From positions 1-12,408 of the forward strand of contig JANTGW010000012.1 of assembly GCA_024762705.1 (NCBI GenBank): 12,408 nucleotides of DNA, given 5' to 3'. Both the position numbers and the translations under genes were made by a program. Shown piece by piece: positions 1-12,408 of the stretch; position 1 is the first letter of the stretch, and every line of letters begins with the position of its first letter. The notes beneath the pieces were generated by a model. It had not been told where the DNA came from. It saw only the letters and a list, made by a program, of their open reading frames with translations, and ran no database searches. The stretch is from Sulfurimonas sp. (lineage in GTDB: Bacteria > Campylobacterota > Campylobacteria > Campylobacterales > Sulfurimonadaceae).

Positions 1-831
1 GAACAGGTTAATGAGGAAAAAAGAGAAGGCAGTACTCCAAAAGAAGTTGGAGGAGTACCTGGAACAGTAAGTAATATCGGCCCTGTACAAGGTCTCTCAT
101 CAAACCAGACAGTGGAAAAATATTCGAAAAACTCCGGTACAACCAACTATGAAGTCGGCAAAACTGTCAGTACAACAAAGAGCCAGTTTGCACGTATTAA
201 AAGAATCACAGCTGCTGTTGTCGTTGACGGGAAATATAAAGCAAAAGTGGATAAGGAAGGAAACCCGACAGAAGAGATGCAGTATGTGCCGCTTGACAAT
301 GCAGATATTGAGGCACTTACATCACTTGCAAGCCGCTCAATTGGAATTGATCCAAACAGAGGAGATCAGATAAGTGTGCAGAACCTGCAGTTTGAACGGG
401 CATCAACAAGTGAGGGTGTAGCAAGTGTAAATAAGGCTATTACATTTACAGAAACGTATCTTGCACCTTTTTCAGACCTGTTCAAATATCTGTTTGTACT
501 TATATTACTATTTATTCTTTACAAGAAAGTCATTGCTCCTTTTGCAGGTAAAATGCTTGAAATATCAAAAGAAGATGAAGAATTGGTTGCACCATCACTT
601 GAACTTGATGAAGAAGAGGGTGATGACTTGGTAGAAAAAGTACAACAAATGCGTAAAAAAGTCGAAGACCAGCTTGGAATGGGCAGTAACTTTAACGAAG
701 ATGATCTTAAACACGAAGTCATCTTAGAAAAAGTTAAGACAATGGCAGAAGAAACACCGGAGGAAGTGGCTTCCTTACTTGAAGCACTTCTGAGTGAAGA
801 ATCGGAAATTCCTACAAGAGAGAGGAAATAA
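1..831 (+). CDS. fliF: Flagellar MS-ring protein FliF, C-terminal part (5' end outside window)
   Basis: The reading frame is open from base 1 to a TAA at 829-831, giving the last 276 residues of FliF, the inner-membrane MS-ring on which the flagellar motor is built. The GTG at 112 is only an internal codon. Visible parts are a low-complexity Gly/Pro/Ser/Asn linker (about fragment residues 9-50) ending in the family-typical stretch IGPVQGLSSNQ, a beta-rich periplasmic segment containing ITAAVVVDG, and the C-terminal transmembrane helix LFKYLFVLILLFILY (about bases 478-525). A very acidic cytoplasmic tail follows, with coiled-coil character. Its last helix (TMAEETPEEVASLLEALL, about 740-795) is the region that in this family binds the N-terminal domain of FliG. 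The next gene, fliG, starts 3 bases after the stop. The assignment rests on the tail, the membrane helix and the fliG/fliH context. Confidence 0.95.
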   Translation, partial: EQVNEEKREGSTPKEVGGVPGTVSNIGPVQGLSSNQTVEKYSKNSGTTNYEVGKTVSTTKSQFARIKRITAAVVVDGKYKAKVDKEGNPTEEMQYVPLDNADIEALTSLASRSIGIDPNRGDQISVQNLQFERASTSEGVASVNKAITFTETYLAPFSDLFKYLFVLILLFILYKKVIAPFAGKMLEISKEDEELVAPSLELDEEEGDDLVEKVQQMRKKVEDQLGMGSNFNEDDLKHEVILEKVKTMAEETPEEVASLLEALLSEESEIPTRERK

Positions 832-833
832 CT

Positions 834-1862
834 ATGTCTGTATTAACACAGCAACAGCAGGCTGCACTTGATGAGATGAGCATGGCGGAAAAAATTGCTA
901 TTCTTCTATTGCAGCTAGGTGAAGATGCCACTGCTTCTATATTTTCTCACATGGGTGTTGAAGCAATTACTGAAGTATCGAAGTATATTGCATCAAATAA
1001 AACGATAGATAAAGCGATTGCAACTGCAGTTTTAGAAGAGTTTCATGCAATCTTTCAGTCCGGACAATTTATGACATCTGGTGGTATGGAATATGCAAGA
1101 GAATTATTGTACAGAACACTTGGAGCGGAAGAGGCCAAGAAAGTTTTAGACAAACTTTCTAAAAGTATGCAAAATACACAAAACTTTGCCTATCTTTCAA
1201 AAATCAAACCACAGCAGCTCTCCGACTTCATTGTGAATGAGCATCCTCAGACTATTGCATTGATATTGGCACATATGGATCCGACTGAAGCAGCAGATAC
1301 ATTGCAGTATTTTCCTGACGACCTGCGAAGTGAAGTTGCTATGCGTATGGCAAGACTTGGTGATATTTCTCCTTCAGTCATTAAGCGTGTCTCGGCAGTA
1401 CTGGAGTCAAAACTTGAGTCACTTGCATCGTACAAAGTAGAAGTGGGTGGAACTCGTGCAGTTGCAGATATCTTTAATCGTCTTGGTGCGAAAAACTCTA
1501 AAGCGACACTTGCCAACATAGAGCAGGTAGATGAAGAACTTGCAACGCAGATCAAAGAGATGATGTTTACTTTTGAGGATATTGTCACGCTTGACAAAAA
1601 TTCTATTACTGAGATTTTAAAAGCAGTAGATAAACCTGAACTTATGTTAGCGCTTAAATCTGCTCCTGAAGAGCTGAAAGAGAAATTCTTCTCTGCAATG
1701 AGTGAGAGAGCCCGTGAAGCATTTGAAGAAGAGATGCAATTCCTCGGTGCAGTAAAAATGAAAGATGTGGAAGCTGCCCAAAGAAAAATTGTTGAAGTTG
1801 TAAACCAGTTGGCTGAGTCTGGTGCTATTCAGCTTGGCTCAACTGAAGAGATGATAGAGTAA
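834..1862 (+). CDS. fliG: Flagellar motor switch protein FliG
   Basis: FliG is the rotor protein of the C-ring. It links the FliF ring to FliM and carries the charged surface that the stator pushes on. At 342 residues it has normal length. The N-terminal domain (about 1-110) contains AEKIAILLLQLGE. The middle domain carries the signature EHPQT at 136-140 followed by IALILAHMDP. The C-terminal domain (about 240-335) includes the torque helix SERAREAFEEEMQFLGAVK. Aligned by eye to E. coli FliG, R281, D288, D289 and R297 correspond to R292, E299, E300 and K308, so every charge is kept although three side chains differ. The ATG at 834 is preceded by a strong Shine-Dalgarno AGAGGAAA (821-828) inside the end of fliF, consistent with translational coupling. 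Confidence 0.98.
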   Translation: MSVLTQQQQAALDEMSMAEKIAILLLQLGEDATASIFSHMGVEAITEVSKYIASNKTIDKAIATAVLEEFHAIFQSGQFMTSGGMEYARELLYRTLGAEEAKKVLDKLSKSMQNTQNFAYLSKIKPQQLSDFIVNEHPQTIALILAHMDPTEAADTLQYFPDDLRSEVAMRMARLGDISPSVIKRVSAVLESKLESLASYKVEVGGTRAVADIFNRLGAKNSKATLANIEQVDEELATQIKEMMFTFEDIVTLDKNSITEILKAVDKPELMLALKSAPEELKEKFFSAMSERAREAFEEEMQFLGAVKMKDVEAAQRKIVEVVNQLAESGAIQLGSTEEMIE

Positions 1863-1866
1863 ACAG

Positions 1867-2646
1867 ATGGCAAGCATAATATCAAGAAACGAAATTGATG
1901 AGCATAACGTGCACAAATACAATTTTAAAGTTATTGCAGCAGGCTCAGGTGAACAGCAAAAAAGTGAAGAAAAAGTTGTTGCAGAAGATAATAATCCAAA
2001 GCCACAAGTTTCGGATGTTGATGCAAGTGCTTTAAGTACGAGTTCTAAAGATTCTTTGATAGAATCATTAATGAAAAAAACGGATGAAATGTCATCAAAC
2101 TTTATCAAATTGCAAATGAAACTTGAGGCCAAAGAAGAAGAATTTGAACAAGAGTTGAAAAAAGCAAAAGAAGAAGCTTTCAGCGAAGGGCTTAAAGCTG
2201 GAGAGGCTAAAGCACGTGAAGAGATTGACAAAGCACTCAATGATAAACTGGTACTCTTGACAGGCTCGATTCAAAAACTTGAAGAGAGTGCAGCTGAATT
2301 TGAAAAAGCTTTAGAAGGCGTTAAAAATGAACTCCTTCATGCAGCGCTGGATATAGCAAAAGAAGTTGTACAGATAGAAATAAGTGAAAATTCAGCCCAG
2401 ATTGCAAAAACATTAAGTGATGAGCTGATGAAAGAGCTACAAAGTGCTTCAAAAATCACTTTAAAAGTCAATCCGAAAGATTACAGCGCAATCGTCGAAC
2501 ATTTCACAAAACTTGAACATGTGGAAGTGTCGCCTGATAAAGCAGTCAGTGAAGGCGGTGTTATTGTATTAAGCGATGCAGGAAATATAGATGCACAGAT
2601 ATCAAAAAGATTTGAACGAGTAAAAAAGGCAGCTTTGAGTGAGTAG
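1867..2646 (+). CDS. fliH: Flagellar export ATPase regulator FliH
   Basis: FliH is the cytoplasmic stator-like partner of the export ATPase FliI in the flagellar type III secretion apparatus. The 259-residue protein has a variable N-terminus (1-60) and a long charged coiled coil (about 63-122) containing the small-residue stretch EAFSEGLKAGEAKAREE, typical of FliH stalks. A C-terminal FliH/HrpE-like domain (about 125-255) ends in GGVIVLSDAGNIDAQISKRFE, the usual closing pattern of the family. The gene starts 4 bases after the fliG stop. The Shine-Dalgarno is weak (GAG-rich stretch around 1853-1859), so translation probably depends on coupling to fliG. The reading frame of dxs begins 8 bases before the fliH stop. 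Recognition rests on the domain pattern and on the fliF-fliG-fliH order. Confidence 0.93.
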   Translation: MASIISRNEIDEHNVHKYNFKVIAAGSGEQQKSEEKVVAEDNNPKPQVSDVDASALSTSSKDSLIESLMKKTDEMSSNFIKLQMKLEAKEEEFEQELKKAKEEAFSEGLKAGEAKAREEIDKALNDKLVLLTGSIQKLEESAAEFEKALEGVKNELLHAALDIAKEVVQIEISENSAQIAKTLSDELMKELQSASKITLKVNPKDYSAIVEHFTKLEHVEVSPDKAVSEGGVIVLSDAGNIDAQISKRFERVKKAALSE

Positions 2647-4471
2647 AATAGATATAAAAGATAAGAGCATAAAAGAACTTGAAGTTTTAAGTGAAGATAT
2701 TAGAAAAAGAATTTTAGAAGTAGTGAGTAAAAATGGTGGGCATCTAAGTTCAACATTGGGTGCTACAGAGATCATAGTAGCAATGCATAAAGTATTTGAT
2801 TCTCAAAAAGACCCTTTTATCTTTGACGTTTCGCATCAGGCATATGCACATAAACTCATTACAGGACGATGGGAAGCATTTGATACTTTAAGACAGTTTA
2901 ACGGTATATGTGGATATACAAAACCAACTGAGAGCAGTGATGACTATTTTGTTGCTGGACATAGCTCCACTTCAATCTCTTTAGGCGTGGGTGCTGCAAA
3001 AGCCATCGCACTCAAAGGAGAGCAAAATGAGCGTATTCCGGTTATCTTGATTGGTGACGGTTCTATGACAGCAGGTATGGTATATGAAGCACTTAACGAG
3101 TTGGGTGAGAGAAAATATCCAATGGTCATTATTTTAAATGACAATGAAATGAGCATAGCCAAACCAATCGGTGCAGTGAGCCGAATGCTAAGTTCTGCTA
3201 TGGCTTCGCCTTTTTATCAAAGATTTAAGAAAAATACAGAGAGCTTTGTGGACAATTTTGGTGACGGTGCAAGATACATTGCCAAACGCATGGAAGAATC
3301 GCTCAAACTTATAACACCCGGTATGCTTTTTGAAGAAATGGGTATTAACTACATTGGCCCAGTAAATGGTCATAATATTTCACAACTTGTAGATATTTTG
3401 CAAACGGCAAAAAACCTGAACGAGCCGGTAATTATTCATGCGCAGACGCTTAAAGGTAAGGGTTATGAGATTGCAGAAGGAAAAGAAGAAAAATGGCACG
3501 GAGTAGGACCGTTTGATATTTCAAGTGGAAATTCTGCAAAAAAAGTTGCGAATAAAAGTGCTACACAGATCTATACGGAAAGTCTACTTGCATTAGCAGA
3601 AAAAAATGAGAAGATAGTCGGTGTTACGGCTGCAATGCCAAGCGGAACAGGATTGAGTGCACTTATAGAAAAATATCCCAACCGTTTTTGGGATGTGGCG
3701 ATTGCAGAACAGCATGCAGTGACTTCAATGGCAGCACTTGCAAAAGAAGGTTTTAAGCCTTTTTGTACCATTTATTCGACATTTTTACAGCGTGCATATG
3801 ATCAGGTCATTCATGATACCTGTTTGATGGACTTGCCTGTTGTCTTTGCTCTTGACCGTGCGGGCATAGTCGGTGAAGATGGTGAAACACATCAGGGTGT
3901 CTTTGACATAAGTTATTTAAGAGCCATTCCAAATATGACGCTGTTCGCACCTAGGGATGAAAAAAGTTTTCATCAGGCAATGGGGTTTGCTGCACAGTAT
4001 GAACATCCCTGTTCACTTCGTTATCCACGAGGTTCTTTTATAGGGAGTAAACTTCCTGAATCAGCACCTTTTGAACTGGGAAAATCTCAGCTTTTACAGA
4101 CTGCAAAGAGTGATATTCTTTTTATCGGTTATGGAAATGGCGTAGGTCGGGCACATGAGACAAGTAAGTTTTTGGATGAAGATGTGAGTATTTTGGATTT
4201 ACGCTTTGTAAAGCCTCTTGATGAAGAGATGCTTACAGAAATGTCCAAAAGATATAAAAAATGGTTTATCTTTTCAGATAGCGCAAAGCATGGTGGTGTC
4301 GGTTCTGCTATTTTGGAGTTTTTGGCAAAAGAAAATATTTTAGATATTTCAGTAGTCTCTTTTGAATATGAAGACGAGTTCATTACGCATGGAAATACAA
4401 AGGTAGTAGAAGAATCATTAGGATTACTACCGCAACAGCTCGCGAAAAGAATTCAAAGCTATAATCCATAG
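2639..4471 (+). CDS. dxs: 1-deoxy-D-xylulose-5-phosphate synthase
   Basis: This thiamine-diphosphate enzyme condenses pyruvate and glyceraldehyde 3-phosphate to DXP, the entry step of the MEP isoprenoid pathway and a source for thiamine and pyridoxal synthesis. Visible motifs in the 610-residue protein are DVSHQAYAHK (63-72), GHSS (107-110), the ThDP/Mg motif GDG at 139-141 with its closing LNDNEMS (166-172), and VNGHN (242-246). They continue with AIAEQHA (354-360, where E357 is the likely catalytic glutamate), YSTFLQRAYDQ (379-389) and DRAGIVGEDGETHQG (406-420). The start is GTG at 2639, 8 bases inside fliH, with Shine-Dalgarno AAAGG at about 2625-2629. Placement behind fliF-fliG-fliH matches Campylobacter jejuni and Helicobacter pylori, so the linkage is ancient in this phylum although the functions differ. 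Confidence 0.98.
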   Translation: MSRIDIKDKSIKELEVLSEDIRKRILEVVSKNGGHLSSTLGATEIIVAMHKVFDSQKDPFIFDVSHQAYAHKLITGRWEAFDTLRQFNGICGYTKPTESSDDYFVAGHSSTSISLGVGAAKAIALKGEQNERIPVILIGDGSMTAGMVYEALNELGERKYPMVIILNDNEMSIAKPIGAVSRMLSSAMASPFYQRFKKNTESFVDNFGDGARYIAKRMEESLKLITPGMLFEEMGINYIGPVNGHNISQLVDILQTAKNLNEPVIIHAQTLKGKGYEIAEGKEEKWHGVGPFDISSGNSAKKVANKSATQIYTESLLALAEKNEKIVGVTAAMPSGTGLSALIEKYPNRFWDVAIAEQHAVTSMAALAKEGFKPFCTIYSTFLQRAYDQVIHDTCLMDLPVVFALDRAGIVGEDGETHQGVFDISYLRAIPNMTLFAPRDEKSFHQAMGFAAQYEHPCSLRYPRGSFIGSKLPESAPFELGKSQLLQTAKSDILFIGYGNGVGRAHETSKFLDEDVSILDLRFVKPLDEEMLTEMSKRYKKWFIFSDSAKHGGVGSAILEFLAKENILDISVVSFEYEDEFITHGNTKVVEESLGLLPQQLAKRIQSYNP

Positions 4472-4489
4472 TAAACTACTAAGTTTACT
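4470..4489. promoter_or_regulatory. Perfect 8-4-8 inverted repeat, candidate Rrf2 operator
   Basis: AGTAAACT (4470-4477) and AGTTTACT (4482-4489) are exact reverse complements around the loop ACTA. The repeat starts within the dxs stop codon and touches the -35 hexamer of the promoter that follows. No T-run follows it, so it makes a poor intrinsic terminator. Rrf2-family regulators bind dyads of about this size next to promoters, and the second gene downstream encodes one, so autoregulation is a reasonable inference. It could still stem the dxs transcript weakly. Confidence 0.45.
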
Positions 4490-4517
4490 TGACTTTAATC
4501 CGCTTCTTTATTATTAT
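4489..4517 (+). promoter_or_regulatory. Sigma-70 type promoter for the DUF4395-Rrf2 unit
   Basis: A -35 TTGACT (4489-4494) and a -10 TATTAT (4512-4517) are separated by exactly 17 bases. The predicted transcript starts near 4524, about 20 bases ahead of the ATG at 4544 and before its Shine-Dalgarno. This is the best -35/-10 pair in the window, where most other promoters lack a -35. The adjoining inverted repeat suggests regulation. Confidence 0.55.
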
Positions 4518-4543
4518 TGCACCAATTAATACAAGGAGTCGGC

Positions 4544-4978
4544 ATGAGTCAAAAATTCTGTCCTGTTTCATTCATAAAAATCGATGCCAATATTATTCGA
4601 ATCAATGCGTTTTATATGCTATTACTCTTTAGTGTTTATTTTGTAACACTGAATAAATTTATAATACTTTTTCTCATTACAGATTTTATCATAAGACTTT
4701 TTGTAAATAAAAATTACAGTCCTTTGTATCAATTATCTGCGAGCACAAAAGAGCTGTTACATGTAAAGAGTAAAATGGAAGACAGTGCTCCAAAAACTTT
4801 GGCTGCGTATTTCGGCTTAATGTTCTTAGGTTTGATATTCTTGTTTGATTTGTTACATCTGCAAACTTTTTTCTTCGTTACAAGCGGCGTACTTGTTGTA
4901 TGTCTATTTTTAGAAATAGCTTTTGATTATTGTTTAGGATGTAAAATGTACTACCTGTATAAAAGGTTTATCGTTTAA
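4544..4978 (+). CDS. DUF4395 family integral membrane protein
   Basis: This is a 144-residue membrane protein with no known reaction. It fits the DUF4395 pattern: an N-terminal CPVSFIKID...RINAF block, a central YSPL (58-61), and a cysteine pair near the end, CLGCKMYY, with C130 and C133. Hydrophobic segments lie at about 22-37, 38-54, 86-105 and 107-128, suggesting four membrane helices. The N-terminal C6 and the C130/C133 pair could form a redox or metal site, which is inference. The ATG at 4544 is preferred over the in-frame TTG at 4517 because AAGGAG lies at 4533-4538 and because the TTG falls inside the predicted -10 box. Its stop overlaps the start of the Rrf2 gene (TAATG), so the two are translationally coupled, hinting that the regulator responds to what this protein handles. 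Confidence 0.8.
   Translation: MSQKFCPVSFIKIDANIIRINAFYMLLLFSVYFVTLNKFIILFLITDFIIRLFVNKNYSPLYQLSASTKELLHVKSKMEDSAPKTLAAYFGLMFLGLIFLFDLLHLQTFFFVTSGVLVVCLFLEIAFDYCLGCKMYYLYKRFIV
4757..4766. repeat. Palindrome TTACATGTAA, copy 1 (in DUF4395 gene)
   Basis: Perfect 10-bp palindrome. It is read here as codons tta-cat-gta-a (L72-H73-V74-K75), within LLHVKSK. First of five exact copies in the window. Confidence 0.9.
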
Positions 4979-5382
4979 TGGTCGGTGTTTCCACAAAAAG
5001 CCTTTATGGAGTTGCAGCAATGCATGCCCTATATAATTCTCCAAGAAACAAACTTATGCAAATCAAAGAGATAGCGGCTGTAACACAAATATCTCATGGT
5101 TACCTTGAACAAATACTCTCAACACTGAAAAAGCATGGTTTTGTTGTCAGTATCAGAGGTGCGAATGGGGGTTACAAGTTAGCTAAAGATGCTTCGGCCA
5201 TTATAGTCCTTGACATTGTAGAAGCCCTTGAAGGAGAGCTTTTTTGTGTCCCTCAAAACGTCGGTGCAAGTGTCGTACTGGATTCTTTTTGGAGGGATAT
5301 CCAAGAAAAGGTTCGGGCAGTGTTCAATGTAAAACTCTCTGAACTTGACAGTGCGTATGCAACATTCTTTTATGAGATCTAG
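4978..5382 (+). CDS. Rrf2 family transcriptional regulator (CymR/IscR-like)
   Basis: A 134-residue winged-helix DNA-binding regulator. The N-terminal KSLYGVAAMHALYN and the helix-turn-helix with wing (about 28-70: IKEIAAVTQISHGYLEQILSTLKKHGFV, then IRGANGGYKLAK) are typical of Rrf2. DIVEALEG (79-86) is the usual following helix. IscR and NsrR hold an Fe-S cluster with three cysteines after this helix. Here there is only one cysteine in the whole protein, C90, so a cluster of that type is unlikely and the protein resembles CymR, the cysteine-metabolism repressor of Firmicutes. Ligand and targets are unknown. The ATG at 4978 shares its A with the upstream stop, with AAAAGG at 4961-4966. The TAG stop lies in the palindrome CTAG, which also supplies the stop of the opposing pgeF gene. 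Confidence 0.88.
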   Translation: MVGVSTKSLYGVAAMHALYNSPRNKLMQIKEIAAVTQISHGYLEQILSTLKKHGFVVSIRGANGGYKLAKDASAIIVLDIVEALEGELFCVPQNVGASVVLDSFWRDIQEKVRAVFNVKLSELDSAYATFFYEI

Positions 5383-6101
5383 AGCATTATAATACCGGCA
5401 AATCTTCCTGTTTCTTTATTGTTCCTGTAGGAATAAAACTTATCCGCTTGACAACAGTTACAGGTATCAGATATCTCTATATTTTCTTTCTTGATTCCCG
5501 TTACATGTAACTGTGCATGTAAAATTGCTCTAATGTCCAAGTAAATTTTTTCATTTTTGATTGTAATGGCATAATCAAGCCTCAACTCTTTTGCTTTTTG
5601 ATAAATTTCTTCGTTTATCTCATAACAGTCTTGACAAATGGCAGGACCAATACTGACAAGAATATCTTCAACCTTTGAACCAAAATCATTTGTAAAACTT
5701 TCAATGACATTTTGTACAATATTTTCAAATGCTCCGGCTCTTCCAGCGTGCACTGCTGCTATTACATTTTGTTTAGGGTCAACAAAAAGCAGAGGCGAGC
5801 AGTCTGCGACCATTACCATCAAAGGTGTGTTCTTTTTGTTTGTGATGATGGCATCACAGGTTGGAGGGTTTTCAAAATCATCATTTTTACCGACTATTTT
5901 TACAATGTTTGAGTGGATCTGTTTCATATGAACAAGTGTTCTATGTTCATATTTCAGCTCTTTTGCCAATTGTTTATGATTTTGTATTACATTTTCTTGT
6001 ATATCATTGACATGAAAAGCTAAATTGTTACTTTCCTTACATGTAAAGGCATGTGTCAACTCTGGATAGTTGTTTAATAATTTACTTTGATAAAATTTCA
6101 T
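5379..6101 (-). CDS. pgeF: Laccase-domain protein PgeF/YfiH (Cu-oxidase_4, DUF152 family)
   Basis: This family has been described as a multicopper polyphenol oxidase, a purine nucleoside phosphorylase and a peptidoglycan editing factor that removes misincorporated residues. The reaction in this organism cannot be told from sequence. Motifs in the 240-residue protein are QIHS (61-64), VADCSPLLFVD (98-108), AAVHAGRAG (115-123), IGPAICQDCYEI (151-162), DTCNCC (212-217) and YSYRNNKETGRFAGI (223-237). H63, C101 and H118 are the expected metal ligands. The frame extends 15 codons further to an ATG at 6146, but conserved sequence begins at MKFYQSKLL, giving the start at 6101. That ATG has no Shine-Dalgarno and sits exactly where a TGTTATAAT promoter would initiate, suggesting a leaderless mRNA. 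The 3' end overlaps the Rrf2 gene by 4 bases. Confidence 0.9.
   Translation of the reverse strand: MKFYQSKLLNNYPELTHAFTCKESNNLAFHVNDIQENVIQNHKQLAKELKYEHRTLVHMKQIHSNIVKIVGKNDDFENPPTCDAIITNKKNTPLMVMVADCSPLLFVDPKQNVIAAVHAGRAGAFENIVQNVIESFTNDFGSKVEDILVSIGPAICQDCYEINEEIYQKAKELRLDYAITIKNEKIYLDIRAILHAQLHVTGIKKENIEISDTCNCCQADKFYSYRNNKETGRFAGIIML
5501..5510. repeat. Palindrome TTACATGTAA, copy 2 (in pgeF)
   Basis: Exact copy inside pgeF, where the minus-strand codons give L198-H199-V200-T201, the same LHV peptide as copy 1 in an unrelated protein. A partial copy GCATGTAA follows at 5515-5522. Confidence 0.9.
6037..6046. repeat. Palindrome TTACATGTAA, copy 3 (in pgeF)
   Basis: Exact copy near the start of pgeF, read in a different codon phase as F19-T20-C21-K22. 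The change of phase shows that DNA rather than peptide is conserved. Confidence 0.9.
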
Positions 6102-6106
6102 ATAAT
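6101..6106 (+). promoter_or_regulatory. Possible plus-strand -10 (TATAAT) facing ovoA
   Basis: The dyad TATAATGATTATA at 6101-6113 gives a consensus -10 on both strands. Plus-strand initiation would start near 6113 and give ovoA a leader of about 148 nt that includes the 77-bp inverted repeat. There is no convincing -35 or TG extension on this strand, so it is weaker than the opposing promoter. Confidence 0.3.
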
Positions 6107-6107
6107 G

Positions 6108-6116
6108 ATTATAACA
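6108..6116 (-). promoter_or_regulatory. Extended -10 promoter of pgeF (leaderless)
   Basis: Read on the minus strand the sequence is TGTTATAAT, a consensus extended -10. Counting seven bases from its last T (6108) puts +1 at 6101, the A of the pgeF ATG. No -35 is apparent. The same bases form half of the perfect dyad TATAATGATTATA (6101-6113). Confidence 0.6.
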
Positions 6117-6141
6117 TAAGATGTTGTGTTGACTAGTGACC

Positions 6142-6218
6142 GTCATTTTAGCTTTGTAATTCCGAGGACGAATCCTCCCCTTCGGCTCTGAGCCTCTCCA
6201 TTACAAAGCTAAAAAGAC
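6142..6218. repeat. 77-bp inverted-repeat element with two internal GC-rich hairpins
   Basis: The arms 6142-6160 and 6200-6218 pair over 19 positions with one mismatch (GTC-a-TTTTAGCTTTGTAAT against ATTACAAAGCTAAAA-a-GAC). Fifteen of these pairs (6146-6160 with 6200-6214) are uninterrupted. The 39-base centre is clearly richer in G+C than its surroundings and folds into two more hairpins: GAGGA-CGAA-TCCTC (6164-6177) and GGCT-CTG-AGCC (6184-6194). The whole forms a three-way junction. No T-run follows on either strand, so it is not an intrinsic terminator, and it lies between divergent genes. It could be a MITE- or REP-like mobile repeat, a protein-binding cruciform, or a structured leader RNA of ovoA. 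Confidence 0.8.
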
Positions 6219-6229
6219 TATAAACTAGA

Positions 6230-6235
6230 TAAAAT
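6230..6235 (+). promoter_or_regulatory. Candidate proximal -10 (TAAAAT) of the ovoA operon
   Basis: TAAAAT lies in TAGATAAAATAA (6226-6237). The identical 12-mer stands at a similar place ahead of the dUTPase gene (10365-10376), which supports a promoter role. The start would be near 6242, leaving about 19 nt before the TTG start and including the Shine-Dalgarno. No -35 was recognised; the upstream bases belong to the inverted repeat. Confidence 0.45.
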
Positions 6236-6260
6236 AAGTATTAGCAAAAAGGAAATTATA

Positions 6261-8360
6261 TTGAGTAAATTAAGCATGTACCCTGTAACACTTGAGGGTC
6301 AAAGTGTGGAAGAAAAACGTAAAGAGATACGTGCGTATTTTCATAACACTTTTGATTTGTTTGAAAAAGTGTTTGAACTCTTAAAAGATGACAGTGTGTT
6401 TTATAAGCAAAGCGAACCGACCCGTCATCCTATGATATTTTATTTTGGGCATACAGCGACTTTTTTTATAAACAGGCTTATTGCTATGAAAATTATAAGT
6501 GAAAGGGTCAATCCTGAGTTCGAATCAATATTTGCAGTCGGTGTAGATGAAATGAGCTGGGACGATATGTCAAAAGAGCATTATAAATGGCCAAAGGTAA
6601 GCGAGGTAAGGGCATATAGAAACAGTGTGCGCAAAATTGTAGATGATTTGATAACAAACATTGAATTCACTCTGCCTATACGTGATGACTCGCCGATGTG
6701 GATTATTTTGATGGGGATTGAACATGAGCGTATTCATGTGGAAACATCATTGGTCTTGCACCGGCAAATGCCTATAGAGTTCATCAAAGATGTAGCGGAG
6801 TTCAATCTCTGTACACACTCTTTTAAAGCTCCTAAAAATGAGATGGTACATGTAACAGGTGGTGAAGTTACATTGGGTAAAGACAAGGAACATCATCTTT
6901 ACGGATGGGACAATGAATATGGTACTTATAGTGAAGTTGTCAAAGATTTTGAAGTGTCCAAGTACCTTGTAAGTAATGGTGAATTTATGGAATTTGTCAA
7001 TGACGGCGGTTATGAAAATGAAGAGTTTTGGGATGAAGAAGGTTTGGAGTTCCTAAAAAAATCAAATGCCAAACATCCGCATTTTTGGCTCAAAGAAGAT
7101 GGAAAGTTCAGATACAGAGCACTTAGTAAGATTATTGATATGCCGTTAGATTGGCCGGTCGATGTCAATGCACTCGAAGCGCAGGCATATTGTAGATACA
7201 AAAGCCAAAAAGATGGTGTTGAGTATACGCTGCCGAGTGAAGCAGAGTATGAACTGGTATATAAGCATGCAAATCTCAAAGATGTCCCAGAGCTTCATGA
7301 AAGCCGTGCAAATATAAACTTTTACCATTATGCATCTTCATGCCCTGTAAATGAATTTGATTTTAATGGTATCTATGATGTTATAGGAAATGTTTGGCAG
7401 TGGAGCAGAACACCTATACGTGCTTTTAAAGGTTTTGAAGTGCATGAGGCTTATGATGACTTTTCTGTGCCTACATTCGATGACAAACATGCACTGATAT
7501 TGGGATCGTCATGGGCAAGCAGTGGGAATTTGATAATGAAACATTCTCGCTATGCATTTAGAAAGCATTTCTTTCAAAATTCCGGATTTCGTTATGTCAT
7601 CACACATAATAATCAAGACGAAAGTGAAGATATTTATGAAAGTGATGAGCTTGTTTCACAATACTGTGAATTTCAGTATGGTGACACGCATTTTGGTGTA
7701 GAAAATTTTGCGATTTCCTGTGCTGCGCTTGCTGCAAAATTCGCAACTAACACAAAAAAAGCTCTAGATTTGGGCTGTGCGACCGGTAGAGCGAGTTATG
7801 AGCTTGCAAAAACCTTTGATGAGGTTGAGGGCATAGACTTCTCGGTGCGTTTTGTCGGCGTTGGTTCTAAACTCAAAGAAGACGGCTATGTGGCATTTAG
7901 CTCAAAAGAAGAGGGCGAGCTTACATGTAACAAAAAAGTTACTCTTGAGGATTTAGGTTATGTAAATCTGGCAAATAAAGTCTCATTTTGGCAGGGTGAT
8001 GCATGTAATATGAAGCCGAACTTCTCGGGATATGATCTCATAATGGCAACAAACCTCATAGACAGGCTCTACAACCCGCGACTCTTTTTAGATACGGTTG
8101 ATGAAAGACTCAACGATAATGGGATTTTAATGCTGACATCTCCGTATACCTGGCAGGAGAGCTCTACGAAAAAAGAGTTTTGGCTGGGCGGATATAAAGA
8201 TGAAAACGGTAATGAAGTCAAGACAATTGAGAGTCTGAAAAATATTTTAAATGACAAGTTCGAGCTGTTACATGTACAGGATTTGGAGTTTGTCATAAAA
8301 GAGACCGCTAGAAAGTATCAGCATACCATTTCTCAGGTGAGTATATGGAAAAAGTGTTAA
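6261..8360 (+). CDS. ovoA: 5-histidylcysteine sulfoxide synthase / methyltransferase OvoA
   Basis: OvoA is a non-haem iron enzyme that uses O2 to join cysteine to C5 of histidine as a sulfoxide. Its fused methyltransferase later N-methylates 5-thiohistidine to ovothiol. The 699-residue protein shows all three parts. A DinB-like domain (about 20-180) has iron ligands H64 (FGHTATFF) and HX3HXE at 155-161 (HERIHVE). A formylglycine-generating-enzyme-like domain (about 195-447) contains MVHVTGGEVTLG, PSEAEYE, IGNVWQWS and SGFRYV. A SAM methyltransferase (about 470-699) carries the glycine motif ALDLGCATGR at 501-510 and the tail YQHTISQVSIWKK. The start is TTG at 6261 behind AAAAAGGA (6246-6253); an in-frame ATG at 6276 is the alternative. 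The close relative EgtB lacks the fused methyltransferase, which favours ovothiol over ergothioneine. Confidence 0.96.
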   Translation: MSKLSMYPVTLEGQSVEEKRKEIRAYFHNTFDLFEKVFELLKDDSVFYKQSEPTRHPMIFYFGHTATFFINRLIAMKIISERVNPEFESIFAVGVDEMSWDDMSKEHYKWPKVSEVRAYRNSVRKIVDDLITNIEFTLPIRDDSPMWIILMGIEHERIHVETSLVLHRQMPIEFIKDVAEFNLCTHSFKAPKNEMVHVTGGEVTLGKDKEHHLYGWDNEYGTYSEVVKDFEVSKYLVSNGEFMEFVNDGGYENEEFWDEEGLEFLKKSNAKHPHFWLKEDGKFRYRALSKIIDMPLDWPVDVNALEAQAYCRYKSQKDGVEYTLPSEAEYELVYKHANLKDVPELHESRANINFYHYASSCPVNEFDFNGIYDVIGNVWQWSRTPIRAFKGFEVHEAYDDFSVPTFDDKHALILGSSWASSGNLIMKHSRYAFRKHFFQNSGFRYVITHNNQDESEDIYESDELVSQYCEFQYGDTHFGVENFAISCAALAAKFATNTKKALDLGCATGRASYELAKTFDEVEGIDFSVRFVGVGSKLKEDGYVAFSSKEEGELTCNKKVTLEDLGYVNLANKVSFWQGDACNMKPNFSGYDLIMATNLIDRLYNPRLFLDTVDERLNDNGILMLTSPYTWQESSTKKEFWLGGYKDENGNEVKTIESLKNILNDKFELLHVQDLEFVIKETARKYQHTISQVSIWKKC
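7921..7930. repeat. Palindrome TTACATGTAA, copy 4 (in ovoA)
   Basis: Exact copy in the methyltransferase part of ovoA, read as L554-T555-C556-N557, the same phase as copy 3. Two nine-of-ten matches also lie in ovoA: GTACATGTAA at 6846-6855 (V196-H197-V198) and TTACATGTAC at 8268-8277 (L670-H671-V672). Confidence 0.9.
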
Positions 8361-9541
8361 AGTACACTTTTACAACGGCAAGTGAGCGTGAGGGTACGAA
8401 TGCCGAAAAATATGTGCTCAGAAAAGAGCTCTTTGGTACGGATGATGTACTTCCTGCCTGGGTCGCAGATATGGATATAGACACACCGCCATGTGTTTTA
8501 GAAGCTGTAAAAAAGAGACTGGAACATCCTGTTATAGGGTATGAAGAAGTGCCGGAGTCTGCATTCCAAGCACAGATCGAGTGGATGAAAAGAGAACATG
8601 GTGTGAACTTTGAAGCCGAAGATATGCTCTATTCTCATTCAGTTGTTGCTTCAATGCACACGGCCATAGAAGCATTTACAAAAGAAGGCGAAGGGGTGAT
8701 CGTACAAACACCTGTGTATCCTCCATTTTTTCACAGTGTACTCAAGCTCAACAGAAAACTTGTAAAAAATTCTCTAAAAATTGATGAAGGCGGGCACTAC
8801 AGTTTTGACATAGAAGACTTGAAGTCAAAAATTGATGAAAATACCAAGCTGTTACTTCTGTGCTCACCACATAATCCAGTAGGAAGGGTATGGAAAAAAG
8901 AGGAGTTAGAAGAGATATTACAAGTCTGTTTGGAACATAACATTGTAGTCTTTGCAGATGAAATACATTCAGATCTTGTTTATGCACCGAATAAGCACAT
9001 TCCTTTTGCATCACTTAGTGAACAGGCAAAAGAGATTAGTATAACCGCTGTAGGCGTAGGAAAGACATTTAATATGGCAGGTTTTGCAATCAGCAGTGTG
9101 GCTATTCAAAACCAACGCTTAAGAGAACAGTTTAAAAAGGCTTATGACAAGGTACATTTCGCGCAAGGATCTTCACTTTCTCATGTTGCATTTGAGACAG
9201 CTTACAAAGAAGGAAAAGAGTGGCTTGAAGCATTAAAAAAACATTTGTATGAAAACTATGTCATGCTTGAAGAAGTTGCAAAGCAGTATCCGCAGTTTAT
9301 AAAAATAACACCCATAGAAGCGACATATCTGGCATGGATAGACTGCCGAGGGATGGGGCTCAAAGATAAAGAATTACGTACTTTTTTCATCGAAGAAGCA
9401 AAACTCGGACTCAATCCGGGCATAAGTTTTGGCAGAGAGGGCAGCGGTTTCATGCGCTTGAACTTTGCCGTAAGCTCTGCTAAAATGACAGAGATAGTTA
9501 GGCGACTCAAAAGTGCACTGCAAAGGAGAACAATTGGCTGA
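8345..9541 (+). CDS. ovoB: PLP-dependent C-S lyase OvoB (PatB/MalY family)
   Basis: A fold-type I PLP enzyme of 398 residues, closest by eye to the cystathionine beta-lyases PatB and MalY. Key features are PAWVADMDIDTPP (37-49), NPVG at 177-180, ADEIHSDLVY (204-213) with D205 expected to contact the PLP nitrogen, GKTFNMAG (239-246) with K240 as the Schiff-base lysine, and RLNFA (371-375) with the substrate-carboxylate arginine R371. Characterised OvoB proteins of this superfamily cleave the OvoA sulfoxide product to 5-thiohistidine. The ATG at 8345 lies 16 bases before the ovoA stop, with AGGTGAG at 8335-8341 inside ovoA, so the two are coupled. The gene symbol is inferred from this tight linkage. 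From sequence alone it could also be an ordinary cystathionine beta-lyase. Confidence 0.85.
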   Translation: MEKVLKYTFTTASEREGTNAEKYVLRKELFGTDDVLPAWVADMDIDTPPCVLEAVKKRLEHPVIGYEEVPESAFQAQIEWMKREHGVNFEAEDMLYSHSVVASMHTAIEAFTKEGEGVIVQTPVYPPFFHSVLKLNRKLVKNSLKIDEGGHYSFDIEDLKSKIDENTKLLLLCSPHNPVGRVWKKEELEEILQVCLEHNIVVFADEIHSDLVYAPNKHIPFASLSEQAKEISITAVGVGKTFNMAGFAISSVAIQNQRLREQFKKAYDKVHFAQGSSLSHVAFETAYKEGKEWLEALKKHLYENYVMLEEVAKQYPQFIKITPIEATYLAWIDCRGMGLKDKELRTFFIEEAKLGLNPGISFGREGSGFMRLNFAVSSAKMTEIVRRLKSALQRRTIG

Positions 9542-9755
9542 TATAAATTGGGCTGAATATAAAGAATATAAAAAATATACAACGAAAAAAGATAACTTTG
9601 AAATACTTTTGGACTTCATTAAGAGCTACTACAATATGACTAGCCCTTTTGAGATGTTTGAAATGCTCGAAAATGATGAAACTGCAAAGATGATGCTGGA
9701 TAAACGAGACATTACAGATGCGGAAAAACTTGAAAGTTTTTTATTTAAACACTGA
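9534..9755 (+). CDS. Small acidic protein of unknown function in the ovothiol operon
   Basis: I do not recognise this 73-residue protein. It is soluble-looking and probably helical, rich in Asp/Glu/Lys and aromatics, with no cysteine or histidine motif apart from a final FLFKH. It begins MADINWAEYKEYKKYTTKK, and the middle stretch SPFEMFEMLENDETAKMML is the most distinctive. The TTG at 9534 is chosen because AAAGGAGAA (9522-9530) stands just before it; the in-frame GTG at 9513 lies upstream of that Shine-Dalgarno. The start overlaps the last 8 bases of ovoB and its stop overlaps the next start as TGATG. Its position between ovoB and the YhbP-like gene suggests coupled translation and a role linked to one of them, which is inference only. 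Confidence 0.75.
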   Translation: MADINWAEYKEYKKYTTKKDNFEILLDFIKSYYNMTSPFEMFEMLENDETAKMMLDKRDITDAEKLESFLFKH

Positions 9756-10174
9756 TGCATAAAGATTTACAAAAGATCAATGAGTTTATATCAAACCATC
9801 ATGTCATGAGTCTTGCAACGACAGACAAAGAAGATGTAAGTGTCTGCAGCCTCTTTTATGCTTATGATGAGAACAATCTTTGTTTTGTAGTTGCAAGCAG
9901 TGATGATACCTTACATGTAAAGCATCTTCTTAAAAACCCTGCAGTTGCAGGCAATATCTTACTGGAGACCGATGAAGTAGGAAAAATACAAGGACTGCAG
10001 TTTAGAGGGCGTATGTTGCCACTTGAGAGTGCGTCTTTAAAAAAGCTCTACTTTAAAACCTTTCCTTATGCTGTCGCAATGATGCCAAAACTATGGCAGA
10101 TAGAAGTAAATTATTTTAAATTGACCGATAACAGGCTTGGATTTGGAAAAAAGATTATTTACTTACCTGCTTAG
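9755..10174 (+). CDS. YhbP/UPF0306 family split-barrel (FMN-binding-like) protein
   Basis: A 139-residue protein resembling E. coli YhbP, a member of the pyridoxamine-5'-phosphate-oxidase-like split-barrel superfamily that commonly binds FMN or similar cofactors. Matching stretches by eye are ISNHHVMSLATTDKEDVSVCSLFYAYDENNL (12-42), AVAGNIL (63-69), IQGLQFRGRM (78-87), FPYAVAMMPKLWQIEV (103-118) and TDNRLGFGKKIIYL (124-137). The last nearly repeats the YhbP ending. No reaction is established for the family as far as I know. The ATG overlaps the preceding stop (TGATG) without a clear Shine-Dalgarno, implying translational reinitiation. As fourth gene of the ovothiol operon it could supply a redox step, which is inference. 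Its 3' end overlaps the opposing mini-protein gene by 20 bases. Confidence 0.85.
   Translation: MHKDLQKINEFISNHHVMSLATTDKEDVSVCSLFYAYDENNLCFVVASSDDTLHVKHLLKNPAVAGNILLETDEVGKIQGLQFRGRMLPLESASLKKLYFKTFPYAVAMMPKLWQIEVNYFKLTDNRLGFGKKIIYLPA
9911..9920. repeat. Palindrome TTACATGTAA, copy 5 (in YhbP-like gene)
   Basis: Exact copy read as L53-H54-V55-K56 in the YhbP-like protein. Last copy in the window; none was found in 1-4756 or 9921-12408. Confidence 0.9.
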
Positions 10175-10328
10175 GCGAAAACAATGAACACTCTGAACCA
10201 CTGCTTTTTAAAACGACCATAGAAGGGATCTGGGCAGATTTAAACCCGTAAGCTTTGCATCCATGAGGTTGAGATGCCTCCCATGTCACATAGTAATATT
10301 TACATCGTCTGCAGTTAATTCTTTTCAT
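10155..10328 (-). CDS. 57-residue four-cysteine mini-protein of unknown function
   Basis: A small basic protein, MKRINCRRCKYYYVTWEASQ at its start, with C6, C9, C24 and C47 in the arrangement CxxC-x14-C-x22-C. The cysteines and the aromatic patch YYYVTW suggest a zinc or Fe-S knuckle. Similar short proteins may be labelled uracil-DNA glycosylase in databases, a vague recollection that I cannot check. Nothing in a 57-residue chain supports a glycosylase. The ATG at 10328 has a good Shine-Dalgarno (AGAGGG) and a TGCTAAAAT promoter behind it. The frame stays open 30 codons further upstream, but that extension is low-complexity and would cross the promoter. The 3' end overlaps the YhbP-like gene by 20 bases. 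Its divergent neighbour is the dUTPase gene. Confidence 0.75.
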   Translation of the reverse strand: MKRINCRRCKYYYVTWEASQPHGCKAYGFKSAQIPSMVVLKSSGSECSLFSPKQVSK

Positions 10329-10351
10329 AAATCCCTCTTTTTGAGTAAGAA

Positions 10352-10360
10352 ATTTTAGCA
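10352..10360 (-). promoter_or_regulatory. Extended -10 promoter of the four-cysteine mini-protein gene
   Basis: On the minus strand the bases read TGCTAAAAT, an extended -10 with one deviation from TATAAT. The start would be near 10345, about 17 nt ahead of the ATG at 10328, with the Shine-Dalgarno between. It lies only 8 bases from the plus-strand -10 of the dUTPase gene, so the two promoters face away from each other and overlap. Confidence 0.5.
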
Positions 10361-10368
10361 TATTTAGA

Positions 10369-10374
10369 TAAAAT
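10369..10374 (+). promoter_or_regulatory. Candidate -10 (TAAAAT) of the dut operon
   Basis: TAAAAT sits in TAGATAAAATAA (10365-10376), identical to the 12-mer ahead of ovoA. The expected start is near 10381, giving a leader of about 30 nt ending in AAAGGAAA and the ATG at 10411. No -35 is visible, as is usual in Campylobacterota. Confidence 0.45.
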
Positions 10375-10410
10375 AAATAAAAGAAACAGTGTTTTATACA
10401 AAGGAAACAG

Positions 10411-11100
10411 ATGGACAATAAGATTTTATTGATGTTGCAACTACAAAATCAGTTAAATGATGCGACCAATGGAGAAGAGTGGACAAAAGGCGTTACCAAA
10501 AACGGAAAAACTATCAATTGGAAACGCTGTATTTATATGGAATGCGCAGAGATGGTAGACAGCTTTGCATGGAAGCACTGGAAAAGCATTGATGTAGAGC
10601 CGGATTGGCAAAATCATCAGATTGAAGTCATAGATGTCTGGCATTTTATAATGAGTCTTGCAATTGAAGTTTATGCAAAAGATTTAAAAGGAACGATTGA
10701 AGATATTGCTATTGATATTTCAGCTTTGGAGGCTTTAAGCAGTATTCAAACAGATGATTTGAAGTTTGCGTCACAGGAAGATGTTATACAGAAGGTAGAA
10801 AATCTGATAAGAATTGCTGTTTCAAAGAATGAAGTCGATATAGGAGAAATGGTCTCGGAATTTTTTGATTTGGTCAGTATAAGCGGATTAAATTTAGAAA
10901 CTTTGTACCGATTATATGTTGGAAAAAATATTCTAAACCAATTCCGTCAGGACAATGGCTATAAGGAAGGTACTTACATTAAAGTCTGGAATGGTGATGA
11001 GGATAACGTAGTTATGAAGAGAATATGGGAAGAAAATGCTGATATAACACCGGAACTGTTGTATGAAAAACTGCAACAATCCTATCTTACATTAAATTAG
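10411..11100 (+). CDS. dut: Dimeric dUTPase (Campylobacter type)
   Basis: Hydrolyses dUTP to dUMP and pyrophosphate, keeping uracil out of DNA and feeding thymidylate synthesis. This 229-residue protein belongs to the all-alpha dimeric dUTPases, related to MazG and unlike the trimeric beta-type enzyme of E. coli. The matches by eye to the C. jejuni enzyme are strong: NWKRCIYMECAEMVDSFAWKHWK (36-58), IEVIDVWHFIMS (71-82) and the C-terminal GKNILNQFRQDNGYKEGTYIKVWNGDEDN. The metal ligands are expected at E44, E47, E72 and D75 (ExxE plus ExxD). The ATG at 10411 has an excellent Shine-Dalgarno AAAGGAAA (10400-10407). The next gene starts 9 bases after its stop, so it probably heads a two-gene operon. 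Confidence 0.95.
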   Translation: MDNKILLMLQLQNQLNDATNGEEWTKGVTKNGKTINWKRCIYMECAEMVDSFAWKHWKSIDVEPDWQNHQIEVIDVWHFIMSLAIEVYAKDLKGTIEDIAIDISALEALSSIQTDDLKFASQEDVIQKVENLIRIAVSKNEVDIGEMVSEFFDLVSISGLNLETLYRLYVGKNILNQFRQDNGYKEGTYIKVWNGDEDNVVMKRIWEENADITPELLYEKLQQSYLTLN

Positions 11101-11109
11101 AGCTGATTT

Positions 11110-11682
11110 TTGAAACGAAATGTATTGGAAATTAAAGAACTGACTTTTGGGTATACAAAAGAAAAAATCATTTTTGAAAATTTTTCTATTACATTGAAAG
11201 AAGGTGAGTTAAAAGCAATTGTTGGAGAGAGTGGTGCGGGTAAAAGTACACTTTTTGAGCTAATTCTCGGAAACATCAAACCACATAAGGGTAGTATTGA
11301 AATTTCAAGTGTTTCTGAAATCTTTCAAGATCCTTACAGCTCTTTTCATCCTAGCTATACACTGTTACATCAAATTAAAGATGTGGCACCTCTCAATAGA
11401 TTGGAATCTCTAATGGAGACTATGAACTTGGGACATGATCTGTTGTTAAAGCTTCCTCATGAACTTTCAGGTGGACAGCTGCAACGTGCTTCCATTTTAA
11501 GGGCTATGCTCATGCAGCCACAGCTGCTTTTACTGGATGAGCCGACATCGGCTTTAGACAATGTGATTCAATTGGAAGTTATGAAGATGCTTGTGAGTAA
11601 CCTGGACTCTATGGGAATGTTGCTTATTACCCATGATATGGATTTGGCAAAATGGTGTGCTGATGAGATTATCAGGATCTGA
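11110..11682 (+). CDS. Orphan short ABC transporter ATPase (peptide/nickel-type)
   Basis: A 190-residue ABC ATP-binding subunit with every catalytic motif: Walker A GESGAGKST (39-47), Q-loop Q73 in IFQDPYSSFHP, signature LSGGQ (119-123) followed by LQRASILRA, Walker B LLLLDE (139-144), D-loop SALD (147-150) and switch H175 (ITHD). The Q-loop and signature wording resemble the DppF/NikE/OppF branch. The chain is much shorter than those (usually about 260-330 residues) and ends right after the switch region, without the C-terminal oligopeptide/nickel domain. No permease or binding protein is in the window, so substrate and direction are unknown. The start is taken as TTG at 11110, with only a weak GAG-containing Shine-Dalgarno; TTG at 11125 is possible. 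The 3' end overlaps crcB by 11 bases. Confidence 0.85.
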   Translation: MKRNVLEIKELTFGYTKEKIIFENFSITLKEGELKAIVGESGAGKSTLFELILGNIKPHKGSIEISSVSEIFQDPYSSFHPSYTLLHQIKDVAPLNRLESLMETMNLGHDLLLKLPHELSGGQLQRASILRAMLMQPQLLLLDEPTSALDNVIQLEVMKMLVSNLDSMGMLLITHDMDLAKWCADEIIRI

Positions 11683-12061
11683 AATAATTATTGACTAAAT
11701 AGTAACCGCTTCCAGCCATAAATATAGTTCCAATAAGATTTAAGCTCATGTTCATAAGAGCCAGACCGATACTCCCACCCTCTAAAAGTAAAAAACTCTC
11801 AATTGCAAAGGTAGAGTAGGTAGTAAGTGCTCCAAGGATTCCTGTCGTTAGAAAGGATTTCATATGAGGAGTGAAAAATGTCGAGTACATAAAATAAGCG
11901 ACAAGAACACCCATTATGAAACTTCCGATAAGATTTACTCCAAGTGTTCCAAAAGGAAGGTCATGAGGAAGTCTGTGAGAAATAAGACCATTGAGATAAG
12001 AGCGTAAAACAGCTCCGATAAATCCACCGCTACCTATTGCTAGTATTGTTTGCCAACTCAT
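11672..12061 (-). CDS. crcB: Fluoride channel CrcB/Fluc
   Basis: A small membrane protein that releases toxic fluoride and works as an antiparallel dimer. The 129 residues contain the family blocks GSGGFIGAVLRSYL, PFGTLGVNLIGSFIMG and TTGILGALTTYSTF, and four hydrophobic helices. The usual TTFSTF is TTYSTF here. One copy is present, so a homodimer is expected. The start at 12061 is preferred to an ATG two codons upstream (12067): AAAAGG ends about 9 bases before the former and only about 3 before the latter. The gene begins inside the end of plsC, so the pair is coupled. This placement leaves no 5' region for the fluoride riboswitch that precedes many crcB genes. The 3' end overlaps the ABC ATPase gene. 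Confidence 0.94.
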   Translation of the reverse strand: MSWQTILAIGSGGFIGAVLRSYLNGLISHRLPHDLPFGTLGVNLIGSFIMGVLVAYFMYSTFFTPHMKSFLTTGILGALTTYSTFAIESFLLLEGGSIGLALMNMSLNLIGTIFMAGSGYYLVNNYFRS

Positions 12062-12408
12062 GATCATACACCTTTTGCATTTTTTCTCGAAGTTTCTTCA
12101 ACCAGTCTGGATCATTCTTATCTGCCATGAAAGAATCTAGGAAGATAACCTTGATTTTACGTGGAACATAATAAAAGCGTTTTATATCATAACAGCCTGC
12201 CGTATTTATAAGTACTATTGGCTGTACCTTAAGCTTGTACTGATCAGCTATTACTTTTGCCCCTGATTTGAAAGGGAGCATCTTGTGACCTCTTGAACGG
12301 GTACCTTCTGGAAATATAGTAATAACGCGTTTCTTTTTAAGCCTGTCCTTTGCAGCACGAAGCAGTTTGATCAATGAAGTCTTACTCTCACGTTCTACTT
12401 CTATGTCT
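12030..12408 (-). CDS. plsC: 1-acyl-glycerol-3-phosphate acyltransferase PlsC family, 5'-truncated
   Basis: This is the C-terminal half of a PlsC-type acyltransferase, which transfers a fatty acyl group to the sn-2 position of lysophosphatidic acid at the inner membrane. The frame is open to the window edge, and its first full codon is at 12407-12405 (D, then IEVERES). The TTG at 12374 is internal. The key block is ITIFPEGTRSRG (acyl-acceptor binding and catalysis), preceded by basic helices and followed by PFKSGAKVIADQYKLKVQPIVL, which carries the later acyltransferase motif (proline in VQPIVL). The HX4D motif lies outside the window. The tail, ending NNTSNR, overlaps crcB by 32 bases. A related acyltransferase with a different acceptor cannot be ruled out from this part. 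Confidence 0.9.
   Translation of the reverse strand, partial: DIEVERESKTSLIKLLRAAKDRLKKKRVITIFPEGTRSRGHKMLPFKSGAKVIADQYKLKVQPIVLINTAGCYDIKRFYYVPRKIKVIFLDSFMADKNDPDWLKKLREKMQKVYDHELANNTSNR

Follow-up and report, generated by a model that had tools for sequence, protein, structure and literature searches.

A palindrome with a strict core amplified in some Campylobacterales lineages and its possible role as an uptake sequence of natural transformation

Amplified uptake tags, in thousands of copies, have been described for two families, the Neisseriaceae and the Pasteurellaceae (PMC3630211; papers are cited throughout from excerpts of their text). The DNA uptake sequence (DUS; GCCGTCTGAA) of the Neisseriaceae occurs in hundreds to thousands of copies, has an invariant core with lineage dialects, forms intergenic inverted pairs tied to terminators and is not found in genes acquired recently (PMC3630211; PMC2397512). 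The uptake signal sequence (USS) of the Pasteurellaceae joins a core to AT-rich segments placed at helical turns, and pairs of it act as terminators (PMC12616744). Beside these two families stands HIP1 (highly iterated palindrome 1) of the cyanobacteria, which is palindromic and over-represented, with more variable outer positions (PMC4390886), and which is still unexplained. In Campylobacter jejuni, of the same order as the bacteria considered here, a methylated palindromic hexamer, RAATTY, tells own from foreign DNA (PMC10046745). Here we describe a palindromic decamer, TTACATGTAA, with its inner octamer TACATGTA, in a 12.4-kb stretch of Sulfurimonas sp. DNA (contig JANTGW010000012.1, positions 1–12,408; hereafter the window) and in related genomes, where it resembles each of these systems in part. 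Our leading interpretation, on which we are evenly balanced, is that the motif serves in natural transformation as an uptake (self-recognition) sequence, a genome-wide identity tag selected at the DNA level in some lineages of the Campylobacterales.

The window holds five exact copies of TTACATGTAA (4757–4766, 5501–5510, 6037–6046, 7921–7930 and 9911–9920) and two copies with one mismatch, GTACATGTAA at 6846–6855 and TTACATGTAC at 8268–8277, as the original prediction had listed them. With up to one mismatch allowed, these seven copies compare with a mean of 0.82, and seven was reached in none of 200 dinucleotide shuffles; a Markov model predicts 0.03–0.04 exact copies at 37.6% G+C, in agreement with the earlier rough estimate of about 0.04. 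The copies were said to lie in four genes on both strands, and indeed all seven fall inside open reading frames (ORFs): one in a DUF4395 gene, two in pgeF, three in an ovoA-like gene and one in a PNPOx-like gene. The two codon phases proposed for them, LHV(K/T) and TC(K/N), are borne out by the translations of the exact copies, which are LHVK (twice), LHVT, FTCK and LTCN. Synonymous shuffling within the window genes left a mean of 1.0 and a maximum of 3 exact copies in 50 shuffles, against the five observed. It had also been remarked that the copies avoid the fliF–dxs operon and the last 2.5 kb; this is true of the exact copies but uninformative, as at this density the first 4.7 kb should hold only about two.

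Genome-wide counts were taken from relatives of the window's genome, with the reversed word of TTACATGTAA as control. A dxs scan of genome contigs gave 133 related loci, of which 80 were analysed (L001–L080), mostly from Sulfurimonas metagenome-assembled genomes (MAGs) by title; L001 is the closest to the window among the matches listed, with 90% amino-acid identity. Palindromes of eight bases were ranked in the 69 loci of at least 9 kb, and TACATGTA was among the most over-represented in ten of these, as it was in the window. In a rapid dxs tree built from 50 loci and the window, the latter clusters with L001–L004 (Shimodaira–Hasegawa approximate likelihood-ratio support 97). Thirteen of the 50 genomes, including all of L001–L004, count as high, in that TACATGTA is at least three times as frequent as the reversed word, and the fewest changes between high and low states on this tree is eight. 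The octamer counts themselves are 8–62 in 35 of the genomes and 112–848 in the other 15, with 10–68 for its reversed word.

The nearest relative, the MAG G001 (the genome of L001), contains 278 copies of TTACATGTAA in 1.5 Mb and three of the reversed word; G003 (that of L003), G004 and G002 have 400, 165 and 104, and the control stayed at 0–7 across the 18 genomes of this count. Within the genus of G001, 17 of 135 genomes carry at least 40 copies (range 43–425; control at most 7), and in the family of G014 the figure is 33 of 228, the highest being G157 with 1061 in 2.9 Mb. When 398 genomes were drawn evenly from the order, 40 had at least 50 copies, 33 of these lying outside the 228 family genomes; G406 was the highest (1496 in 3.0 Mb). 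Over all genome sets counted the control was 0–10. Several carriers consist of a single contig and were taken as complete: G037 (425), G020 (340), G149 (Sulfurimonas sp. HSL3-2; 367), G406 and G386 (1484). One protein of G149 is the same as one assigned to HSL3-2. The group of G406 and G386 probably represents Sulfurospirillum, to judge from a G406 protein whose nearest match with a named organism is Sulfurospirillum barnesii (83%).

In eight of ten sampled genomes (G149, G020, G164, G157, G014, G006, G001 and G003) TTACATGTAA is the top 10-base palindrome; it is not so in G022, where CTACATGTAG comes first, nor in the low-count control G019. Sampled stretches are far above Markov models, with 51 copies against 0.05 expected in G157 (52.7% G+C), 34 against 0.25 in G149, 30 against 0.38 in G020 and 24 against 0.23 in G003. 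Synonymous codons were shuffled 50 times per genome in the ORFs of such stretches. In the seven genomes with TTACATGTAA as the main form a mean of 0.7–3.5 copies was left of the 9–40 observed (1.4 of 40 in G157, 1.1 of 21 in G149, 3.5 of 28 in G020 and 2.4 of 21 in G003). The variant genomes G006 and G022 gave 1.1 of 5 and 0.3 against 0 for the decamer, and 7.4 of 43 and 5.0 of 25 for TACATGTA. Counts far exceed those of the reversed word, stretches far exceed Markov expectation and little of the excess survives synonymous shuffling, so that neither of the two outcomes named beforehand as refuting came about; selection or copying thus operates at the level of the DNA, as had been proposed from the window.

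The core of the motif is ACATGT or TACATGTA, with flanks specific to the lineage. The dialects CTTTACATGTAAAG, CCTTACATGTAAGG and TTACATGTAA and the looser forms all contain ACATGT, and their fit to lineages was judged by genome group: CTTTACATGTAAAG in G406, G386, G277 and, with few sites, G569 (this set of genomes is called the third group below); C(C)TTACATGTAAG(G) in G149, G157, G014 and G164; TTACATGTAA in the window's group; and a looser ACATGT flanked by Y/R in G006 and G022. Summed over seven genomes, forms with one mismatch at the outermost position of the decamer number 208 against 10.0 expected; within the octamer few changes are seen, position -4 in G006 being the exception. In known uptake sequences the mismatched forms are over-represented throughout (PMC1939737); this feature is thus present at the edge of the motif and mostly not in its core.

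The sites are kept between close relatives, to which this comparison applies, as the sampled stretches of distant carriers hardly overlap. Five of six aligned octamers of the window are retained in L001, against a background of 21.7% for 8-mers with two G/C (p 0.002); the figures are one of one for L003 and two of five for L004. Between G406 and G386, 10 of 10 octamers are kept in one direction and 10 of 12 in the other (background 64%).

Placement was assessed with ORFs defined by a simple longest-ORF rule, so that gene ends are approximate. Intergenic octamers are enriched (p<0.05) in eight of 12 genomes, belonging to two of the three groups, over a non-coding background of 5–12%: G277 (19 of 51), G406 (11 of 41), G386 (12 of 31), G569 (4 of 9), G149 (16 of 54), G157 (72 of 312), G014 (10 of 39) and G164 (6 of 33). 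Close pairs, 10–30 bp apart, number 23 in the 12 genomes against 7.3 under uniform placement, an expectation that intergenic crowding would raise; G157 alone is at expectation (5 against 3.9). Eleven of 18 intergenic close pairs lie between convergent genes; the background ranges from 7 to 46% among the genomes that have them, and at 18% the binomial p is 6e-5. One pair of G406 and one of G386, both divergent, are evidently a single shared site. In G022, the one genome concerned, two of seven stretches lack the octamer and are island-like by their ORF content as read by eye: L141 is a polysaccharide-type gene cluster and L144 holds resolvase and transposase genes. ACATGT is still present in them (7 and 1 copies).

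Around the sites of most genome sets the A+T content is phased with the helix. For this analysis G386, which is close to G406, and sites less than 45–60 bp from another were set aside, and 500 draws of composition- and phase-matched WWSWWSWW words served as control. With the two sides averaged, 420 unpaired coding octamers of four sets show A+T peaks at 9–13, 21–25 and 32–35 bp from the centre and dips at 16–20 and 27–31 bp; the period at single coding sites is 11–11.5 bp in four of five genome sets. Coding sites score above all 500 draws in the third group, in G157, in Sulfurimonas and in the variant genomes, and intergenic sites do so in the third group and in G157. In the three remaining sets intergenic phasing did not go beyond the draws; two of them offer no more than 8–10 sites. 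Such phasing suggests DNA that is bent or wrapped by a protein, and it recalls the AT-rich segments of the USS (PMC12616744). The USS has these segments downstream only, whereas in the motif the A+T is phased on both sides; one-sided flanks of the USS kind were considered and rejected, the left and right phase scores being uncorrelated in the three sets tested.

In favour of an uptake sequence are the copy numbers, the loss of most of the excess on synonymous shuffling, the strict core with its lineage dialects, the intergenic and paired placement in two groups, the A+T phasing in most sets and the two octamer-free stretches. If the motif is such a sequence, its strict core, ACATGT or TACATGTA, would be recognized by a DNA-binding protein with two-fold symmetry that belongs to the uptake apparatus and that would bend or wrap some 30 bp of DNA to each side. 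Free DNA bearing the tag would be preferentially taken up and recombined, and this bias would keep the tags and spread them through the core genome. Intergenic copies would settle as hairpin pairs, which may act as transcription terminators. The machinery for transformation is plausibly present in carriers, since the genes concerned are general: ComEC was found in 210 of 228 genomes of the G014 family and a secretin in 19 of 19.

Several observations weigh against an uptake sequence. Competence genes, proposed as a check, are present but do not set carriers apart, as ComEC and secretin are equally common in low-count genomes; three carriers, G001, G004 and G085, belong to the 18 of 228 genomes, of completeness not given, without a ComEC match. 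No receptor or other reader protein for the motif was found, whereas ComP is known for the DUS, and the excerpts examined from papers on Sulfurimonas and natural transformation show no transformation of a carrier. The motif is palindromic, whereas the USS is stated not to be a palindrome and the DUS is not one either. Mismatched forms of the DUS are over-represented (PMC1939737), whereas the octamer mostly shows no such excess: 44 observed against 70.5 expected in the third group, 210 against 261 in Sulfurimonas, 95 against 87 in G157, 85 against 99 in G149, 48 against 60.5 in G014 and 32 against 38.5 in G164. Some excess is seen in G006 (105 against 71) and G022 (107 against 91); within the 10-mer context G157 (20 against 5.1) and G006 (25 against 7.7) stand out, the others being near expectation. 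Intergenic enrichment is lacking in G020 (4 of 59), G003 (3 of 39), G006 (4 of 47) and G022 (3 of 28), and phasing is absent at the coding sites of G149, G014 and G164 taken together, where 213 of 500 draws reach the score. Even spacing of sites has been reported for the USS. It was rejected for the motif: the variance is below the mean in six of ten genomes, with a pooled p of 0.45.

The strongest competitor, which we think unlikely though well worth keeping in view, is a site for a chromosome-organizing protein of the nucleoid or of segregation, bound as a dimer at hundreds of places, wrapping the flanks and maintained by purifying selection. The two-fold symmetry of the motif, a strict core mostly without a halo of mismatched forms, A+T phasing that scores positive on either side and the retention of sites between close relatives would all be accounted for. 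Such a protein does not predict the two octamer-free stretches or the convergent hairpin pairs, and the patchy presence among relatives, with its eight changes on the dxs tree, would be odd for a system of this kind.

A HIP1-like iterated palindrome, whose origin or upkeep would lie in the methylating activity of an orphan methyltransferase specific for the core, appears to us distinctly improbable. The strict core and variable outer position of a palindrome are as in HIP1 (PMC4390886, section 2.6). HIP1 accompanies orphan GATC and CGATCG methyltransferases, and its one-off forms are common in many cyanobacteria, whereas for the octamer this mostly does not hold. Five methyltransferase families (PF00145, PF01555, PF02086, PF02384 and PF07669) were searched for in 15 or 16 genomes, and the comparison took in 55 of 61 loci, fragments being dropped. 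PF02086 matches occur in eight of 11 carriers and in none of four low-count genomes, and relatives of this family in five carriers (G006, G149, G154, G157 and G164) are 31–67% identical to each other. PF02086 was nevertheless rejected as the cause: it is absent from the single-contig carriers G020 and G037, and the family is widespread, with at least 7997 matches. G020, which has no match to PF00145, PF01555 or PF02086, has three PF02384 loci; one of these scores as HsdM above the cut-off of NCBIfam, and two of the three are also where its PF07669 matches lie. In G149 there are two PF02086 genes and a weak PF07669 match of 238 amino acids, of a kind also found in the low-count genomes G019 and G031. 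Weak PF07669 matches are thus all that G149 and G020 share among the five families, and a methyltransferase common to the carriers looks unlikely, which weakens the original prediction's suggestion of an orphan or host enzyme; of its three analogies (HIP1, uptake sequences and a methyltransferase target) the uptake sequence fits best. When the matched parts of five PF02086 proteins were compared with NCBIfam, only the second G149 copy was above a cut-off (Dam family), and a search of the PDB with one PF02086 protein gave no match. The cytosine-deamination product TTATATGTAA shows no excess in six of seven genomes, the exception being G157 (4 against 0.3). ACATGT is not among the 5-methylcytosine motifs of Sulfurimonas denitrificans in the excerpt of PMC8112702, a species that may or may not be a carrier. 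The RAATTY system of C. jejuni requires its methyl mark, whereas here it is the sequence that is amplified, with no common methyltransferase in the families searched.

A Chi-like recombination signal, recognized by AddAB or RecBCD, would suit the hundreds to about 1500 copies lying mostly within genes. We regard it as very improbable, for known Chi sites depend on orientation and are no palindromes, whereas the motif, as a palindrome, has no orientation, and convergent paired hairpins and helical A+T phasing are to our knowledge not features of Chi. An origin by chance, or as a by-product of preferred codons or amino acids, is refuted: most copies are coding and most of those read LHV(x), but the two codon phases, the intergenic copies, the loss of most of the excess on synonymous shuffling and a reversed control of 0–10 leave it practically no room.

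Returning to the uptake sequence, we propose more specifically, and with rather less than even confidence, that it is palindromic and independent of methylation, is read by a symmetric receptor that bends the DNA on both sides, has, in its dialects, been kept and lost, or been spread, over two families or more, and is the first amplified one in the Campylobacterota in the literature searched. As the original prediction supposed, literature searches gave no description of the decamer; no title among the papers containing the string TTACATGTAA concerns these bacteria, and the motif is not described in the excerpts of PMC9141341, PMC8112702, PMC3035281, PMC12927875, PMC2734928 and PMC3847290. If the proposal holds, this would be a third tag system, symmetric and in free-living bacteria, with one carrier a named strain with a single-contig genome. 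It would allow the origin of tags to be compared with respect to uptake bias, methylation or DNA bending as the maintainer, and the tag might make it easier to bring DNA into bacteria that resist transformation.

Within the window, the copy at 4757 lies in the DUF4395 gene (4517–4978, forward strand) and is the same in L001 and L003, with CTACATGTAA in L004. The copies at 5501 and 6037 lie in pgeF (5379–6146, reverse strand); both are the same in L001, and a copy in L003 with very similar flanks corresponds to the second. The ovoA-like gene (6261–8360, forward strand) contains GTACATGTAA at 6846, absent in L004 and unaligned in L001; the exact copy at 7921, absent in both; and TTACATGTAC at 8268, which is TTACATGTAG in L001 and lost in L004. 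The octamer is intact in the two mismatched copies. The copy at 9911, in the PNPOx-like gene (9755–10174, forward strand), is the same in L001 and L004. The OvoA-like protein has DinB_2, FGE-sulfatase and methyltransferase domains and is followed by an aminotransferase-fold pyridoxal-phosphate enzyme (8345–9541); by their domains the two are probably an ovothiol-synthesis pair. A 26-nt inverted repeat (85% complementary) at 6142–6218 lies at the pgeF start and ahead of the ovoA-like gene.

In G157 (L232:173–2352) a PF02086 gene stands after genes whose products are related to the DUF4395 (36% identity) and Rrf2 (54%) proteins of the window, and it occupies the place that pgeF has in the window; its relatives in L227 and L228 adjoin a TsaD-like gene, named by eye. 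GATC is strongly under-represented in stretches of G006, G020, G003, G022, G164 and G001 (observed/expected 0.15–0.34), and CATG outside the motif has ratios of 0.60–0.93 in the 14 sets counted. G001 also carries a CRISPR array (L167:2235–3556) of 23 repeats spaced about 60 bases apart, the repeat of which we take to resemble type I-F.

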